Shown: piece by piece, positions 37,583 to 49,908 of the stretch
Numbering within the stretch: the first letter of the stretch is position 1
Layout of the letters: every line of letters begins with the position of its first letter
Assembly: GCA_030651575.1 (NCBI GenBank)
Contig: JAUSFB010000073.1
Span: 124,001-188,000, forward strand
Reading direction: 5' to 3'
DNA from: Phaeospirillum sp.
GTDB lineage: Bacteria; Pseudomonadota; Alphaproteobacteria; Rhodospirillales; Magnetospirillaceae
DNA length: 64,000 nucleotides
Position numbers and translations under genes: made by a program
The notes under the pieces: model-generated
Seen by the model: only the letters and a program-made list of their open reading frames with translations
Databases searched by the model: none
Told to the model about the DNA's origin: nothing

Positions 37583-38437
37583 TCACAGCAAGCCGTGGCG
37601 GAGAATGCACCACAGCTTGAACCCCTTCGACACCTTCACCGGCGGATCGCGCGGCACGAAGCCCTCGGCCTCGACCTTATGAAAGATCTCGCGGTACATT
37701 TCCTTCATCAGGGTCGCCGGCCGCATGGCGCCCGGCGAACACTCGGCCATGACCCGGTCGGACGTTTCGAAATAGCCCCGCGCGACGTCGCCCAGTTCGC
37801 GACACGCCGCCGTCAGATTGGGATGGGCCAGCACGGCCATGGGATCGTCGCCGCCGATGCCATGGGCGGTCAGCAACTCGTCGGGCAGATAGAGCCGGCC
37901 GATGGCCGCGTCCACCGCCACGTCGCGCAAGATATTGGTCAACTGCAAGGCCATGCCGGTGGCATCGGCCACATCCAGGCTGCGCGGCCGCAATTCACCG
38001 AATACCCGCACGGACAGCCGCCCGACAGCACAGGCCACCCGGTCGCAATACAGCACCAGATTGGCCATGGAGGGGCGCACCATCTCGTTGCGGCCGTCCA
38101 TCTCGCAGCCGTCGATCACCGCCATGAAGTCGTCCTTGGGCAGGCCGAATTCCGCGATCGGGCCGACCAGGGCCAAGGCGATGGGATGGGTCGGACATCC
38201 CCGATATAGCCGGTCCAGCTCGTCGCGCCACTCGGCCAGCTGGCGGCGCTTGGTCTCCGGCTCGCCCGGCTCGTCGGCGATGTCGTCGACCTCGCGGCAA
38301 AAGGCGTAGATGGCGTACATGGAAAAGCGCCTGGGCCGGCTGAGCAGCCGCATGCCCCAGTAGAAGGACGAGCCCGAGGCCCGGACCTTGTCCGCCACCA
38401 TGTCATACTGGCCGGCATCGATCACCAGGGCGTTCAT
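37583..38437 (-). CDS. hpnD: Presqualene diphosphate synthase HpnD
   Basis: Joins two farnesyl diphosphates head to head. The 284-residue prenyltransferase has the two aspartate-rich motifs, DDIADE at residues 51-56 and NILRDVAVD, plus YCDRVACAVGRL. The N-terminal SGSSFYWGMRLL and AIYAFCREVDDIADEPG stretches fit HpnD rather than HpnC. Squalene formation by this route also needs HpnC and HpnE, which are not in the window. The ATG overlaps the hpnB stop by four bases. Confidence 0.92.
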   Translation of the reverse strand: MNALVIDAGQYDMVADKVRASGSSFYWGMRLLSRPRRFSMYAIYAFCREVDDIADEPGEPETKRRQLAEWRDELDRLYRGCPTHPIALALVGPIAEFGLPKDDFMAVIDGCEMDGRNEMVRPSMANLVLYCDRVACAVGRLSVRVFGELRPRSLDVADATGMALQLTNILRDVAVDAAIGRLYLPDELLTAHGIGGDDPMAVLAHPNLTAACRELGDVARGYFETSDRVMAECSPGAMRPATLMKEMYREIFHKVEAEGFVPRDPPVKVSKGFKLWCILRHGLL

Positions 38438-39612
38438 ACCGGAACTCCATCAACCGGCACGCCCGGGGCCAGACCGTCTTGAACCCGGCCCTTCCACTCG
38501 CCACCCTCGCCGCGCCAGTACTTGACCGCCGAATGGATGGTCGCTGCCAGATAGAACAGCGCCACCAGCGGCAGCAGCGGCGCCCAAAGCGGCGACTGCC
38601 GGTAATATCGCACCATAGGGTAATAGGCGATGGTCATGGCCGCCCAGGCCAAGGCGCCGGTCGTGCCGCCGCCGCTGCCGCGAATGGCCAGAACGGGCGG
38701 CAGTATGAACACCAGCAGCATGGCCAGGACCGTGCCCAGCAGCAACAAGGGTGAATGGCGCAACTGGGTATAGGCCGAGCGCGAGATCATCCGCCACAAT
38801 CCGTCCGGGCCGTGATAGCCGCGCAGGGAAACGGTGTCGTCGGCAAGGTCGAGAGTCAGGCGCCCCCCCTCGGCCTTGACCGCCGCCGCCAGGGTGCAAT
38901 CGTCGATCAGGGCGTCCTTGATGGCCTTGATGCCGCCGATGCGCTCCAACATGGCGGGACGGATCAAGACATAGCCGCCCGCCGCCGCCGCCGTGGTGCT
39001 GCGCGGATCCGACACCCAGGAAAACGGGTAAAGCATGCGAAAGAAGAACACGAAAGCCGGAACGATGGCGCGCTCCCACAGGCCTTCGGCCCGCAACCGC
39101 ACCATCAGCGAGGCCATGTCGAGCCGCTCGGCCAACAGCCGGCACACCGTCTGACGCAACTCGCCCTTGCCATGGCCGATATCGGCGTCGGTCAGCAGCA
39201 GCAGTCCGGCGTCGGGATAAAGGGCGCGGGCGGTGACGACGCCGTGACTCTGCGCCCACATCTTGCCGGTCCAGCCCGGCGGCAAGTCGGGGGCCTGGAC
39301 CACGGCCAACCGGCCGGCGGCACCGATCACCTCGGCCCTGGCGCGCGCCACGCTGGCGGTGCCGTCGCTGCTGTGATCATCCACCACCACCACCGACAGT
39401 GCGCCGGGATAGTTCTGCGACAGCAGCGATTCCACCGCGTCGCCGATCACCTCGGCCTCGTCACGGGCGGGAATTACCGCCACCACGTCCGGCCAGTTAT
39501 CCGGCATAACGGCCCGAGGGGTGGACTCGACCCGCCAGAAGTTGCCGCGCATGGTCATTAGCCAGCCCCAGGCGCCGACACCGGCGAGTCCGGCGAAAGA
39601 AGCGAGGCTCAT
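38434..39612 (-). CDS. hpnB: Hopene-associated glycosyltransferase HpnB
   Basis: A 392-residue membrane glycosyltransferase of family 2. It has DVVAVIPARDEAEVIGDAVESLL, VVDDHSSDGT, the metal motif LTDADIGHG and the acceptor-site RMISRSAYTQLRHS, then three or four C-terminal membrane helices. It is regularly found in hopanoid clusters; its exact substrate is not settled in my knowledge. The ATG at 39612 overlaps the hpnA stop (ATGA). Confidence 0.9.
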   Translation of the reverse strand: MSLASFAGLAGVGAWGWLMTMRGNFWRVESTPRAVMPDNWPDVVAVIPARDEAEVIGDAVESLLSQNYPGALSVVVVDDHSSDGTASVARARAEVIGAAGRLAVVQAPDLPPGWTGKMWAQSHGVVTARALYPDAGLLLLTDADIGHGKGELRQTVCRLLAERLDMASLMVRLRAEGLWERAIVPAFVFFFRMLYPFSWVSDPRSTTAAAAGGYVLIRPAMLERIGGIKAIKDALIDDCTLAAAVKAEGGRLTLDLADDTVSLRGYHGPDGLWRMISRSAYTQLRHSPLLLLGTVLAMLLVFILPPVLAIRGSGGGTTGALAWAAMTIAYYPMVRYYRQSPLWAPLLPLVALFYLAATIHSAVKYWRGEGGEWKGRVQDGLAPGVPVDGVPV

Positions 39613-40601
39613 GCGACGTCTCCCGTGCTGCGAAACCACCCGACCGCCGCCTTCAGTGCCTCTTGAGCCGAGCGGTGGCGATAGCCCAGGTCACGCTCGG
39701 CCTTGGCCGAGGAAAAGAACATCCGCCAGCGCGACATCTTGAGACCGTCAACGGTGACGAACGGCTCGCCCCCGGCAAGACGGGCCCACAGCTCGGCCGC
39801 GACGGCCAACGGATAGAGCGGCGCGCGCGGCAGCTTGATCCCTGGCGGCTTGCGACCGGTCAGCCTGGCGATCTCGGCCAGGATATCGGCCAGAGACAGA
39901 TTATCGCCACCCAGGATATAACGCTCGCCAACGCGGCCCTTCTCCATGGCCAGCAGATGGCCCTCGGCCACATCTTCCACATGGACGATGTTAAGGCCGG
40001 TATCCACATAGGCCGGCATGCGGCCGCAAGCGGCCTCGACGATCATCCGCCCGGTTGGTGTCGGCTTGACGTCGCCCGGTCCGACGGGGGTCGAGGGATT
40101 GACGATCACCGCCGGCAGGCCGTCCTCGGCCGTCATGCGGCGGACCACCTCCTCGGCGAGGAATTTCGATTGCTTGTAAGGCCCCACCTTGTCGTCGATC
40201 GCGCTGGGGGTGTCCTCGTCGGCGATTCCGCCTTTCACATGGCCCAGGGTGGCGACCGAGGAGGTATAGACGACGCGCTCGACCTTTTCCGCCAAGGCGG
40301 CCCGCATCAAGGTGCGGGTTCCCTCCACATTGGCCAGCATCATGGCGGTGGGATCGGGAACCCAGATCCGATAATCGGCGGCGGCGTGAATCAGACGGGT
40401 GCAGCCGTGAATCGCCTTGCGCAGCGAGGCTTCGTCCTCCAGCCGGCCCTCGACCACCTCCACCTGAAGATTCGCGACGTTATGGCGGTTGGAGTTGGGC
40501 CGCGCCAGCACCCGCACCTTGTCACCCCGCGCCAGCAGCGCCCGCACGATGGCCGAGCCGACGAACCCGGTTGCTCCGGTGACCAGATATTTCCCTTGCA
40601 T
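39609..40601 (-). CDS. hpnA: Hopanoid-associated sugar epimerase HpnA
   Basis: A 330-residue extended SDR (NAD-dependent epimerase/dehydratase). The Rossmann motif YLVTGATGFVGSAIVRAL opens the protein and the catalytic pair YxxxK is in GPYKQSKFLAE, after TSSVATLG. It is named HpnA from its steady presence in hopanoid loci; it probably supplies or modifies the sugar moiety. ATG 40601 has AGGTGGGG upstream. The frame is open about 50 codons further, but without motifs. It heads the five-gene unit. Confidence 0.92.
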   Translation of the reverse strand: MQGKYLVTGATGFVGSAIVRALLARGDKVRVLARPNSNRHNVANLQVEVVEGRLEDEASLRKAIHGCTRLIHAAADYRIWVPDPTAMMLANVEGTRTLMRAALAEKVERVVYTSSVATLGHVKGGIADEDTPSAIDDKVGPYKQSKFLAEEVVRRMTAEDGLPAVIVNPSTPVGPGDVKPTPTGRMIVEAACGRMPAYVDTGLNIVHVEDVAEGHLLAMEKGRVGERYILGGDNLSLADILAEIARLTGRKPPGIKLPRAPLYPLAVAAELWARLAGGEPFVTVDGLKMSRWRMFFSSAKAERDLGYRHRSAQEALKAAVGWFRSTGDVA

Positions 40602-44959: not shown

Positions 44960-44988
44960 TTGCGAAGGTGAAAGCCGCCCCGTATACT
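44960..44988 (+). promoter_or_regulatory. Sigma-70-type promoter of the Pls-like synthetase
   Basis: TTGCGA and TATACT are separated by exactly 17 bases, about 85 bases before the ATG of the synthetase. A small hairpin (GATGAAGTTTTCATC) lies in the leader near 45015. This is a good housekeeping-type promoter, so the gene has its own transcript. Confidence 0.6.
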
Positions 44989-45071
44989 GACGTCGGGGAT
45001 ACCTCCACCATCGATGAAGTTTTCATCATCGCTGCCCGGGCGTAAGCCGAGACGGGCTATTTCAGGATGTC

Positions 45072-48000
45072 ATGAACCAGCTCTCTCCGCCCTTGCCCGC
45101 CCCCCTGCTTGGCCGCGACGATCCGTCTCTCCTCCGCGACGAGATGTTATCCGAAATATTCGCCGCCTCGGCCGTCCGGACCCCCAACGCGACCGCCGCC
45201 ACCTTCGGCGAGACCTCGCTGAGTTATGGCGAACTTGCCGGCCGCGTCGATCGGATCGCCGCGGCCCTGGCCGCCAAGGGGATCGGACGCGGCGCCTTCG
45301 TCGGGCTGTGGATGTCGCGCTCTCTGGACCTGCATGTGGCGCTGCTGGGAATCCTGCGGGCCGGAGCCGCCTATATTCCGTTCGACACCGACGCCCCGGC
45401 CGAGCGGGTGGCGGAATGCCTTGACGATTGCGCCGCAGCCGCCATCATCGTCGACGCGGTGACCGCCGGCGGAGTCGAGACGCCGCTGCCGGCCGAAATG
45501 CTGCTGCTGCCGGCCTTGCTCGAACAGGCGCCGACCGCCCCGCCCCCCGATCCGCGGGCCTTGGGCGCCGGCCCCTCCGATGCCGCCTACGCCATCTATA
45601 CCTCCGGCTCCACCGGCAAGCCGAAATCCATCGTCATCAGCCATAGCAACATCTGCCATTACCTGCGCGCCGCCAACACCATCTACGGCATCAACGCCAC
45701 GGATGTGGTGTTCCAGGGCGCCTCGGTCGCCTTCGATCTGTCGCTGGAAGAGATCTTCATCCCCTATCTGGTGGGGGCCTCCCTCTGGATCGCCGGCCGC
45801 CAGACCCTGGCCGAAGCCGACCAACTGCCCGACGTACTGACCCAGGCCGGCGTCACCGTGCTCGACACCGTGCCGACCCTGCTCGGCCTGCTGCCCCGCG
45901 ACGTCTCCTCGCTGCGGGTGATCATCCTGGGTGGCGAGGCCTGCTCGCCGACGGTGGCCGAACGCTGGAGCCGGCCCGGCCGACGCATCTTCAACTCCTA
46001 CGGCCCCACTGAGGCGACCGTGGTCGCCACCATCGCCGAGGTCAAGCCGGGCGAGACGGTGACCATCGGCCGGCCCATCCCCAATTACAGCTGTTGGGTG
46101 GTGGACGGAACCCTGGCCCCGGTCGCGCACGGGACCACCGGGGAGCTGCTGATCGGCGGCCCCGGCATCGCCGCCGGCTATCTTGGCCGTCCCGAGCTGA
46201 CCGCCGAGAAGTTCATCGCCAATCCATGGGACGCCACCGGCGCCGCGCCGGTTCTCTATCGCTCCGGCGACGCGGTCAGCGTGGACGAATCCGGCAATCT
46301 GGTGTTTCACGGCCGCATCGACGATCAGGTCAAGATCCGGGGCTTCCGGGTCGAACTGGGCGAGATCGAAGCCCGGCTGGCAACCCAGAACGGGGTCGCC
46401 CAGGCCGCCGTGGTGCTGCGCAACGATGACGGCGTCGAGCGGCTGGTCGCCTTCCTGGTCGCCGAGGATGAAGAGGTCGAGTGCACGCGGCTGCGCGATT
46501 CGCTGCGCACCCAACTGCCCGCCTATATGGTGCCGTCCCATTACCTGACCCTGCCGGAACTGCCGCGCCTGACCTCCGGTAAGCTCGATCGCAAGGCGCT
46601 GCGGCAAATTCCGCTGGGGACCATCGCCGCCGAGGAGCAAGAGGCCCCCGCCACCGCCACCGAGGCGGCCTTGCTGGAAGCCGCCCGCCGGGTGTTTCCG
46701 GGGCAGTCGATTCCGTTCGAAGCCGACTTCTTCATGGATCTGGGCGGTCATTCGCTGCTGGCCGCCAAGTTCGTCTCGGCGGTGCGCGAGACTCCGACCC
46801 TGGCCAGCCTGACCCTGAACGAGATTTATGGTGTCCGCACCCTGCGCGCCATGGGGGCGTTGCTCGACTCCCGCACCCCGGCCGCCGACGCCAGGCCGGC
46901 CGACCTGTCATTCCTGCCGCCCACCCTGCTCCGCCGCTTCACCTGCGGTTTGGCCCAGGCCGTCGCCATGCCCTTCATCCTGGCGCTGACCACCGCGCCG
47001 TGGCTGGGGGTGTTTATCAGCTATATGCTGCTGTCGGGCGAGGAAGCCGGGCCGCTGGGTGAGTTGGGCACCCTGATGCTGACCTACGCCGTCATCAATG
47101 TGGGGACCATCTCGCTATCCATCGCCCTCAAATGGGTGATCCTGGGGCGCACCAAGCCGGGCCGCTACAAGCTGTGGGGCGTCTATTATTTCCGCTGGTG
47201 GCTGGCCCAGCGCGTCGTCAGCGTCGCCCATATCAAGTGGTTCCAGGGCACGCCGATCATGAGCATCTATCTGCGGCTGCTGGGGGCCAAGGTCGGTGGC
47301 GACTGCATCATCTCGGAACTGGAGGCCGGTGCCTTCGATCTGGTGACCATCGGCCGCGACGTCGCCATCGGCGGCAAGGTCCGCCTCGCCAATGCCGAGG
47401 CCGTCGGCGACGAGTTGGTGATCGGCGCCATTTCCATCGGCGACGACGCCTATATCGGCTCGTCTTGCATCATCAGCCACAATGTGGTGATCGAGCATGG
47501 CGGCGAGTTGGGCGATCTCACCGCCCTGTCTCCCGGCTCGCGGGTCCGCCGCTACGAGCATTGGGACGGCTCGCCCGCCCGTCAGGTCGGCATGGTCGAC
47601 GAGGCCGCCCTGCCGCCCCCGGCGCGGGCCTCCGCCGGCCGCAAGATGGCGCTGACCGCCTTCTACGCCGCCATGCTGGTGGTCCTGCCGCCGGTCAGCC
47701 TGCTGCCCATATTCCCCGCCTTCTTCCTGTTCGACCATCTCAGCGAAATCCTGGCCGGCACCGGACCGCAGGATTACCTTTACATACTGCCGCTGCTGGC
47801 CTGGCCGACCGCCATGGCGCTGATCGCCATCACCGTCTTGCTGATCGCCGCGGTGCGCTGGTCGGTTCTGCCGGTGGTCACCGCCGGCCACTATTCGGTC
47901 TATGGCGGCTTTTACGTGCGCAAATGGATCGTGGCACTGGCGACCGAACTGGTGCTGGAGACCCTGTCCTCGCTGTACGCCACCGTCTATATGCGGCTGT

Positions 48001-49073
48001 GGTACCGGCTGATGGGGGCCAAGATCGGCAAGGATGCCGAAATCTCGTGCAACCTCGCCGGCCGCTACGACCTGACCGAAATCGGCGCCAAGTGCTTCAT
48101 CGCCGACGAAGTGGTGCTGGGTGACGAAACCGTCCGCCGGGGCTGGATGGTCCTGGAGCCGGTCAAGACCGAGGCCCAGGTGTTCGTCGGCAACGACGCG
48201 GTGGTTCCGCCGGGATCGTGCATTCCCACCGGCACCCTGATCGGCATCAAATCGCGGCCGCCGGCCAATTCCGAGATGCAGCCGGGCGATACCTGGTTCG
48301 GCAGCCCGCCCATCAAGCTGCCGGTCCGCCAACGCTTTGACAGCGTCGGCGCCAACTGGACCTACGAGCCGCCCCAGTGGCGCCGGGTTCTGCGCGCCGT
48401 GTTCGAGGCCTTCGCGGTCTCGCTGCCCACCATGCTGTTCATCACCTTTGGCATCCTGACGGTCGAGGTGCTGGCGCCGTCCATCCTGCGACACGATTAC
48501 GGCACGGTGATCCCCCTGTTCATCGCCGCCTCGGTCGCCATCTCGGTGGCTCTGGCGACCGCTTCCATCGCGGTCAAATGGCTGATGATGGGCGTCTACC
48601 GCCCCACCGCCAAGCCCATGTGGTCGTGGTGGGCGCTGCGCACCGAAGCGGTGGCGGTGATGTACTGGGGACTGGCCGGCAAGGTGCTGCTGGACCATCT
48701 GCGCGGCACCCCGTTCCTGCCCTGGGTGCTGTGGCTGTATGGCTGCCGGTTCGGTGAAGGCGTGTACATGGACACCACCGATATCACCGAATTCGACTGC
48801 ATCGACGTGGGCGATTTCTGCGTCATCAACTCGCTGTCGGCGCTTCAGACCCATCTATACGAGGATCGGGTCATGAAGGTCGGCCGGGTCAAGTTGAACC
48901 CCGGCGTGACCATCGGCAGCGGCTCGACCGTACTCTACGACACCCATATCGGCCAGTTCGCCCGCATCGGCAAGCTGACCATCGTGATGAAGGGCGAATC
49001 GATTCCGGCCCATGGCGAATGGGAAGGCGCGCCAGCCCAGATGTCTCCCCCGCGTCCTCCTTTGGCGCGATGA
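45072..49073 (+). CDS. Pls/PosA-type single-module non-ribosomal peptide synthetase
   Basis: A 1333-residue protein laid out as A-T plus membrane tandem domains. The adenylation domain (about 20-515) has YTSGSTGKPKS, NSYGPTEAT, YRSGD, the KIRGFRVELGEIEARL core and the A10 lysine in LTSGKLDRKAL. The carrier domain has the phosphopantetheine serine S561 in LGGHSLL. The rest contains three pairs of membrane helices, each followed by a hexapeptide-repeat domain, the plan of epsilon-poly-lysine synthetase. Aligned by eye with GrsA, the pocket reads D235, L236, E239, D278, I299, G301, S322, V330, V331, which suits a basic amino acid. Product unknown. Confidence 0.88.
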   Translation: MNQLSPPLPAPLLGRDDPSLLRDEMLSEIFAASAVRTPNATAATFGETSLSYGELAGRVDRIAAALAAKGIGRGAFVGLWMSRSLDLHVALLGILRAGAAYIPFDTDAPAERVAECLDDCAAAAIIVDAVTAGGVETPLPAEMLLLPALLEQAPTAPPPDPRALGAGPSDAAYAIYTSGSTGKPKSIVISHSNICHYLRAANTIYGINATDVVFQGASVAFDLSLEEIFIPYLVGASLWIAGRQTLAEADQLPDVLTQAGVTVLDTVPTLLGLLPRDVSSLRVIILGGEACSPTVAERWSRPGRRIFNSYGPTEATVVATIAEVKPGETVTIGRPIPNYSCWVVDGTLAPVAHGTTGELLIGGPGIAAGYLGRPELTAEKFIANPWDATGAAPVLYRSGDAVSVDESGNLVFHGRIDDQVKIRGFRVELGEIEARLATQNGVAQAAVVLRNDDGVERLVAFLVAEDEEVECTRLRDSLRTQLPAYMVPSHYLTLPELPRLTSGKLDRKALRQIPLGTIAAEEQEAPATATEAALLEAARRVFPGQSIPFEADFFMDLGGHSLLAAKFVSAVRETPTLASLTLNEIYGVRTLRAMGALLDSRTPAADARPADLSFLPPTLLRRFTCGLAQAVAMPFILALTTAPWLGVFISYMLLSGEEAGPLGELGTLMLTYAVINVGTISLSIALKWVILGRTKPGRYKLWGVYYFRWWLAQRVVSVAHIKWFQGTPIMSIYLRLLGAKVGGDCIISELEAGAFDLVTIGRDVAIGGKVRLANAEAVGDELVIGAISIGDDAYIGSSCIISHNVVIEHGGELGDLTALSPGSRVRRYEHWDGSPARQVGMVDEAALPPPARASAGRKMALTAFYAAMLVVLPPVSLLPIFPAFFLFDHLSEILAGTGPQDYLYILPLLAWPTAMALIAITVLLIAAVRWSVLPVVTAGHYSVYGGFYVRKWIVALATELVLETLSSLYATVYMRLWYRLMGAKIGKDAEISCNLAGRYDLTEIGAKCFIADEVVLGDETVRRGWMVLEPVKTEAQVFVGNDAVVPPGSCIPTGTLIGIKSRPPANSEMQPGDTWFGSPPIKLPVRQRFDSVGANWTYEPPQWRRVLRAVFEAFAVSLPTMLFITFGILTVEVLAPSILRHDYGTVIPLFIAASVAISVALATASIAVKWLMMGVYRPTAKPMWSWWALRTEAVAVMYWGLAGKVLLDHLRGTPFLPWVLWLYGCRFGEGVYMDTTDITEFDCIDVGDFCVINSLSALQTHLYEDRVMKVGRVKLNPGVTIGSGSTVLYDTHIGQFARIGKLTIVMKGESIPAHGEWEGAPAQMSPPRPPLAR

Positions 49074-49324
49074 ACCGCAAACGCTCGGTGATGATCGCCG
49101 GACACGCCACCAGCGTGACTTTGGAGGCCGCCTTCTGGGATGAACTCAAGGGCATCGCCGAGGCGCGAAGCACCTCGCTCAACCATCTGGTGACCGAGAT
49201 CGATTCCGGGCGCGCCGGCAACCTGTCCTCGGCGATCCGGGTTTTCGTGCTGGGTGAACTGAAGCGAAAAGCCGTCGGGGAGCCTGCCGTCAAAAAGCCG
49301 GACGACCCCACTCCGGTCAGCTGA
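49070..49324 (+). CDS. Ribbon-helix-helix domain protein
   Basis: An 84-residue protein. KRSVMIAGHATSVTLEAAFWDELKGIAEARSTSLNHLVTEID matches the RHH_4-type fold (strand, then two helices), a small DNA-binding dimer unit found beside many alphaproteobacterial genes. Its ATG overlaps the stop of the Pls-like gene by four bases, so it belongs to the same transcript and may regulate it. The target is unknown. Confidence 0.78.
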   Translation: MNRKRSVMIAGHATSVTLEAAFWDELKGIAEARSTSLNHLVTEIDSGRAGNLSSAIRVFVLGELKRKAVGEPAVKKPDDPTPVS

Positions 49325-49434: not shown

Positions 49435-49908
49435 ATGGCGACTCTATCCATTCCGGTAAGGTTGGCCCTGGCCGAACTCAGTGCCGCCGCTCTGATGGAA
49501 ACGGCCGCCGGTCTTGCCGCAGCGTCGGATCATCAAGCCTTCATCGCCGCGCTCGAAGACAATCACCAACTGTGGCGGACCCTGGTCGGGGTAGCGCACC
49601 AGCAGTCGTGGAGCGCCCCGGATGCCCATCAGGCCGAGTTCGTCATGACGGTATCGCGGAAATGCGGCCTCGGCGTCTGCGATAACCATGTGGAAGCACT
49701 GATCGGCATCAACCACCGGGTTTCCAGCCAACTGGCGGGCGGCGCCGACCTGGGTCGCATCGCCCACCGCGCCAATTCGACATGGCACGAGACCGGGCTG
49801 GCCGAAAGCGTCTCGTTCTCCCACTGGCTGATGGAGGAAATCCTGCGCAAGGCCCGCCACAACGCAGCCTTTCCACCCCCGGAAGCCCCGCTGGCGGCGG
49901 CGAGTTAA
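49435..49908 (+). CDS. FlaF-like protein
   Basis: A 157-residue soluble helical protein. The stretch ALEDNHQLWRTLVGVA and the later LIGINHRVSSQLAGG follow the spacing of the alphaproteobacterial flagellin-assembly regulator FlaF (N-x2-LW-x-L ... L-x-IN-x-V). Resemblance is by pattern only, and the C-terminal 45 residues are extra. No flagellar gene adjoins it. AGGAGG lies well placed before the ATG. It could be a FlaF relative recruited elsewhere, or a different helical protein. Confidence 0.6.
   Translation: MATLSIPVRLALAELSAAALMETAAGLAAASDHQAFIAALEDNHQLWRTLVGVAHQQSWSAPDAHQAEFVMTVSRKCGLGVCDNHVEALIGINHRVSSQLAGGADLGRIAHRANSTWHETGLAESVSFSHWLMEEILRKARHNAAFPPPEAPLAAAS

Follow-up and report, generated by a model that had tools for sequence, protein, structure and literature searches.

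The closest described relatives of the gene reported here are PosA, the delta-poly-L-ornithine synthetase of Acinetobacter baumannii (PMC10522769; PDB 8g95-8g98), and Pls, the epsilon-poly-L-lysine synthetase of Streptomyces albulus (A domain, 7wew). The terminal domain of PosA has been described as three repeats of a helix pair and a beta-helix, and an Asp and a Glu of the substrate pocket are reported to be invariant across the family; their replacement in PosA (D217A, E221A) leaves no detectable activity (PMC10522769). The same work argues that the second position of the pocket code sets the chain length of the substrate, with Phe for DAP/DAB, Met for Orn and Ala for Lys, and reports that a Bdellovibrionales relative with Glu at position 3 showed modest activation of L-arginine and none of the diamino acids tested. 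An acidic pocket is hence no guarantee of a diamino acid. As for lysine codes in general, 11 of the 26 given in Table 5 of PMC12195549 carry the pair Glu-Asp at positions 3-4, and in the same paper Ile and Met at position 2 are also listed and a predicted model has the position-4 Asp touching the lysine side chain.

Alphaproteobacterial clusters of this kind are already in print. Patel and Gulick (2023) treat 'D L E D I G T V T/V/I K' as a unique signature and report it from Archaea, Rhizobia and Methylobacterium; in the same year a genome note on Bosea described a NAPAA cluster with the code DLedLgTVvK in its strain and in all seven other complete Bosea genomes (PMC10508160); and a Methylorubrum genome note mentions an epsilon-polylysine-like NAPAA cluster. 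Predicted NRPS and PKS clusters, together with a PKS deletion, have been described for M. gryphiswaldense (PMC7860042), the passages concerned establishing no tie to the gene reported here, and our searches of open-licence PMC papers listed nothing on a magnetospirillum NAPAA product. Cationic polymers with isopeptide bonds are of use as antimicrobials, and outside the actinomycetes few producing organisms have been tested.

Synthetase gene and genomic context

The window, by which we mean the whole 64,000-nucleotide stretch of a Phaeospirillum sp. genome that was analysed (contig JAUSFB010000073.1), carries on its forward strand, at 45072..49073, an uninterrupted open reading frame of 1333 aa whose product is a member of the Pls/PosA (NAPAA) family with the known single-module architecture. 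The family profile TIGR02353 (NRPS_term_dom, 'Pls/PosA family') matches aa 628-1322 over positions 2-695 of its 695, with 567 bits against a cut-off of 423.1. The adenylation domain (aa 30-504; 45159..46583, +) is made up of AMP-binding at aa 30-371 (PF00501, 262 bits) and AMP-binding_C at aa 431-504 (PF13193, 44.6 bits), and is also recognised by the NCBIfam model TIGR01733 (AA-adenyl-dom, 408.5 bits). It is followed by a carrier (PCP) domain at aa 543-598 (46698..46865, +; PF00550, 24.4 bits, cut-off 20.8), whose Ser561, in the motif GGHS, is invariant in 37 of 37 family sequences, counting the target (L092 and L098 were dropped from this conservation set). Neither a condensation nor a thioesterase family is among the Pfam matches of the protein.

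The rest of the protein is a predicted polymerising membrane domain (46953..49037, +), in which TIGR02353, hydropathy and AlphaFold2 together delineate three units, each a transmembrane pair with a left-handed beta-helix. In the AlphaFold2 model of this domain (719 aa, 42 sequences; pLDDT 86.8, pTM 0.86), each of three repeats consists of a long-helix pair and then a beta-helix, and the seven 19-residue hydropathy peaks of the synthetase all lie within the six helix regions. Searches of the PDB by sequence and by fold gave only weak matches; the 50 Foldseek matches listed were mostly hexapeptide acyltransferases, gamma-carbonic anhydrases and similar folds, with a query TM-score of at most 0.17, and included no solved terminal domain. 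The third beta-helix contains the motif QTHLYEDRVMK (48846..48878, +), a candidate condensation centre in which Q1259, H1261, E1264 and K1269 are invariant, H1261 being the sole invariant His across the 37 sequences, target included. The initial annotation had assigned the gene to a Pls-like family and read its plan as an A domain, a carrier and three membrane-pair/beta-helix units; the full-length profile match bears out the former and the agreement of Pfam, NCBIfam and AlphaFold2 the latter, while the feature begins at the coding start, 45072, and not at 44960 as had been proposed.

The window genome (4.23 Mb in 87 contigs, completeness 99.99) holds a single TIGR02353 match above the cut-off and two weak ones of 27 and 25 bits; only strong matches were counted, since at a loose threshold 13 of 14 control genomes also match. 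The absence of further NRPS modules or condensation domains, first remarked for the vicinity of the gene, extends to the whole genome for PF00668, which has no match at E 0.001 in a search that was positive in four of the 14 control genomes. It is worth asking why a magnetic bacterium should retain a predicted polycation synthetase when its genome shows no NRPS condensation domain. No substrate, export or degradation gene consistently adjoins the synthetase across the compared loci, in which neighbouring genes were called by codon usage, a procedure that small genes can escape. Of the 18 relatives L072-L089, in which the gene is unbroken (L090 and L091, where it is split, were left out), six have a phosphopantetheinyl-transferase gene directly upstream, in each case a match to PF01648; the window genome has two PF01648 genes, both on other contigs. 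A PPTase-like gene was also seen directly downstream of two PosA-type genes, in L105 at 2037-2636 (PF01648) and in L106 (by BLAST cluster only). Among the 80 best-matching relatives, out of at least 578, there are 76 named loci in which the gene is of sufficient length, and 37 of these have a histidine-phosphatase gene directly upstream (PF00300 in L101), an arrangement that is frequent in Hyphomicrobiales-type genomes; in 18 of the 37 a gene that we named AroC by eye follows within four genes. Some 4.5 kb upstream of the synthetase, on the opposite strand, the window carries the hopanoid genes HpnD, HpnB and HpnA (37583-40601, -), all above their NCBIfam cut-offs.

Within the genus, the neighbours are a Sel1-repeat gene, a ribbon-helix-helix (RHH) gene and a FlaF/DUF2934-like gene. 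The last of these is small (49435-49908, +), is conserved downstream in the genus and matches FlaF with 19.9 bits, under the cut-off. The RHH gene (49070..49324, +) encodes a small RHH_4 protein (PF13467, 86.4 bits, scanned from a longer start at 49019) and starts within the ATGA that ends the synthetase gene. In all eight genus loci inspected (the window and L072-L078) an RHH_4 gene follows the synthetase with a possible start in a 4-nt overlap, the junction being ATGA in six and GTGA in two. The overlap noted in the initial annotation is thus a regular feature of the genus, while the longer start at 49019 gives way to 49070, which this junction makes the most likely one. Such an RTGA overlap would fit translational coupling of the two genes. 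In the same gene calling, with its limits for small genes, no RHH homolog was called beside the synthetase gene outside the genus, so that a general regulatory link of RHH_4 to the synthetase is unsupported.

Substrate pocket and clade

The pocket positions of GrsA were placed by what we take to be the core motifs of the A domain, in an alignment with 38 homologs. This yields D235, L236, E239, D278, I299, G301, S322, V330, V331 and K517, or DLEDIGSVVK (D222, L223, E226, D265, I285, G287, S309, V317, V318 and K504 in the protein's own numbering); the first three of these fall within 45735..45749 (+) and D265 at 45864..45866 (+). The first nine positions are corroborated by the PosA code printed in PMC10522769 and by a gap-free alignment of aa 183-386 with the PosA crystal chains 8g95/8g97 (204 residues, 234 bits); with 7wew, the Pls A domain of S. 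albulus, the same stretch gives 127.5 bits. An AlphaFold2 model of aa 1-610 (39 sequences, pLDDT 87.8) fits the crystal structures of the PosA A domain (405-409 columns) at 1.6-2.0 A; for the L-lysine-bound form, 8g98, the value is 1.6 A across 408 columns. Among the 50 Foldseek matches listed, PosA has the lowest rmsd, 1.6 A; by E-value bigger multi-domain NRPS entries outrank it, but at higher rmsd. Alignment and model fit alike put acidic residues where a comparison by eye with GrsA had first put them, at D235, E239 and D278, the structural comparison giving an acid at both 239 and 278.

These acids differ in what they say about the enzyme. Both D222 and E226 are conserved without exception in the set of 37 sequences, which counts the target and takes in the codes DFEA, DAES and DSEC. 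Since E239 is thus family-wide, only D278 distinguishes this clade. In the 39-row alignment (target included), D278 is found in 24 of 27 DLE rows and replaced by Ser in three, while the 11 readable non-DLE rows have His, Ser, Ala or Cys there and one row is unreadable. Taking 80 named loci, the best of at least 578 relatives, together with the target, and leaving out five loci as truncated, 76 codes could be read, 73 of them DLED and three DLES; some genomes are common to the two code sets. Positions 299 and 322 covary in these 76 codes, Ile or Val at 299 going with Ser at 322 and Leu with Thr, with one exception (L144, DLEDIGTVVK).

The code of the clade can be written as DLED[ILV]G[ST]VVK, rarely DLES, and on this reading magnetospirilla, Azospirillum, Methylobacterium and Bosea are all included. 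Among the same 80 loci, the best of at least 578 relatives, named members belong to Azospirillum, Telmatospirillum, Methylobacterium, Bosea, Methylocella, Methylosinus, Rhodoblastus and Beijerinckia. The 16 other genomes of the genus all carry the gene (as two pieces in G009, G012 and G015), and so do 19 of 38 other genomes of the family; the remaining 94 of the 149 genomes searched gave no match at E 1e-100. A terminal domain of any clade was found at E 1e-90 in nine of 289 class-sample and 27 of 398 phylum-sample genomes. In a FastTree phylogeny of 59 sequences, drawn from Pseudomonadota only, with no Pls, actinomycete or fungal synthetases and rooted by choice on L104/L107, all 48 DLE sequences form one clade (support 0.979), whose sister is a group of three sequences with the exact PosA code, DMEHNGTVSK (support of the joint clade 1.0); one of these PosA-type sequences, L106, scores 517 bits against 8g95. 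Code and clade are not always concordant, as L110, with the near-PosA code DMEHNGTVTK, falls apart from the PosA-type sequences.

Other family members were met along the way. L111, from a genome of the window's class (G635), has the code DSECYGGVTK, which is that of the arginine-preferring Bdellovibrionales enzyme of PMC10522769, and a terminal domain of 367.9 bits, under the TIGR02353 cut-off; L109 (7770-11822) has the code DVEANGTGSK. L097, which has a lysine-type code shared by L096, was considered as a stand-in for Pls and rejected, 7wew being absent from its six PDB matches at E 1e-95. The gene is frame-split in G009 (C1:1471885-1475852) and G054 (C8:673821-677769), where either real decay or an assembly error is possible.

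Candidate products and proposed mechanism

We consider it highly likely that the gene encodes a membrane-bound Pls/PosA NRPS whose product is a short polycation of L-lysine or L-ornithine units joined by isopeptide bonds. The shortlist of these two amino acids offered in the initial annotation appears to be right, as predicted from the pocket code and the kinship with PosA; the pocket alone, as far as its residues can be read, cannot separate one from the other, while the bulky residue at 236 and the ancestry of the domain would lean to ornithine. The readings in which one monomer is specifically used overlap slightly, since the enzyme might use both.

That the enzyme is specifically of the epsilon-poly-L-lysine type has, in our estimate, close to an even chance. 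Its code is one position off the lysine domains ApnA A2 (DAEDIGSVVK) and AptA2 A2 (DTEDIGSVVK) and two positions off Rv0101 A1 (DIEDVGSVVK), all in PMC12195549, and shares with 11 of the 26 lysine codes cited above the Glu-Asp pair at positions 3-4. Against this, position 2 is Leu, where Pls-A has Ala, and the A domain is nearer to PosA than to Pls-A (364 vs 275 bits).

A delta-poly-L-ornithine-type enzyme is a serious possibility too, if one that we hold somewhat short of even. The clade is sister to the PosA-type sequences, the Leu at position 2, held to set chain length, resembles the Met of PosA in size, and the hydroxyl of PosA Thr304 is kept, as S309. However, position 4 is Asp and not His, lysine codes with Ile or Met at position 2 are listed as well (PMC12195549), and Val stands here for PosA Ser313, whose change in S313A costs PosA 183-fold (PMC10522769).

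It is decidedly improbable that the product is a polymer of a less usual monomer, such as 2,4-diaminobutyrate, 2,3-diaminopropionate, beta-lysine or an arginine analogue. Nearly this code is a unique signature for which the relevant passage of Patel and Gulick (2023) gives no substrate, the relative that prefers arginine (PMC10522769) does so with another code, and matches to Dat or EctB below the cut-off occur in three clade genomes (G024, G035, G042). Yet position 2 is neither Phe, as for DAP/DAB, nor Gly, as for beta-lysine (PMC10522769), and Dat or EctB is above the cut-off in only two of 26 clade genomes (Dat in G046, both in G021), which makes 2,4-diaminobutyrate unlikely as the clade monomer, and it was set aside; in the window genome neither has a match at E 1e-60. 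That the resemblance is one of domains only, an amino acid being activated with polymerisation lost, we regard as very improbable: no product is known to us and the gene is frame-split in the two genomes named above, but the target and the clade have kept the C-terminal residues found in PosA-type sequences and in other members of the family, genera of two orders retain the clade, and dN/dS for the window gene against each of seven congeners (Nei-Gojobori, own script) is 0.19-0.27 for the terminal part and 0.20-0.35 for the A-carrier part, values low enough in each to place both parts under constraint.

For the lysine or ornithine polymer that we favour, we infer a substrate, a linkage, a condensation centre at the H1261 motif and a biological role as follows. 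The A domain would use ATP to activate a single cationic diamino acid (L-lysine or L-ornithine), its side-chain ammonium being bound by E226 with the help of D265 and S309 and its alpha-amine and carboxylate being held by D222 and K504. The aminoacyl group would then be loaded onto phosphopantetheine at Ser561, and the pseudo-threefold membrane/beta-helix domain would repeatedly couple units through the side-chain amine, with the QTHLYEDRVMK motif (H1261) as the putative condensation centre by analogy with hexapeptide acyltransferases. A short isopeptide-linked polycation would be released without a thioesterase, and may serve as a cell-surface, biofilm or antimicrobial polycation. The chemistry of this scheme is carried over from relatives in the literature.

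A bolder proposal, which we consider unlikely, is that the polycation of the DLED clade has a conserved, non-antibiotic envelope role, with D278 tuning the enzyme to a monomer, or to a lysine/ornithine mix, that would be new for NAPAA. It is prompted by the presence of the gene in all 17 genus genomes searched and by the frequent histidine-phosphatase neighbour (37 of 76 loci).

The clade is large, its pocket is nearly uniform, and in the window's genus it is present in every genome searched. The A-domain substrate of one member would suggest the substrate for the whole clade, and at stake is whether Leu236 or Asp278 is the decider between lysine and ornithine. Our searches of open-licence PMC papers brought up no measured activity for any DLED-clade member.

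Relation to described synthetases

The lysine domains ApnA A2, AptA2 A2 and MxcG A1, with 9, 9 and 8 of 10 pocket positions identical to the window code, presumably belong to modular NRPSs without a Pls-type terminal domain. Pls has the same architecture as the window gene, as published; the equivalent of its E217 is present, and its code, DAESIGTVVK, shares 7 of 10 positions; the window gene has Leu for Ala at position 2, Asp for Ser at position 4 and Ser for Thr at position 7. PosA shares the A-PCP-terminal domain plan, is the top PDB match for the pocket stretch and is reported as a single-gene operon (PMC10522769), like the stand-alone gene of the window. The equivalents of PosA D217 and E221 are present, while only 5 of 10 pocket positions are identical (DMEHNGTVSK vs DLEDIGSVVK), the window gene having Leu for Met218, Asp for His260, Ile for Asn280, Ser for Thr304 and Val for Ser313.

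The window code is one residue away from the group of Patel and Gulick and belongs, by code, to the same clade; we found no essential difference from that group or from the Bosea NAPAA cluster (PMC10508160), as far as these are described there. The initial proposal of a cationic polymer synthetase in a Gram-negative alphaproteobacterium stands as to family, by TIGR02353. A Gram-negative homopolymer synthetase, PosA, has been published before, and so have clusters from alphaproteobacteria whose code is essentially the one seen here. The kind of enzyme and the pocket pattern are already in print, and the window gene is a new member, which looks like a magnetospirillum representative of a clade known from Bosea and from the Patel and Gulick signature.
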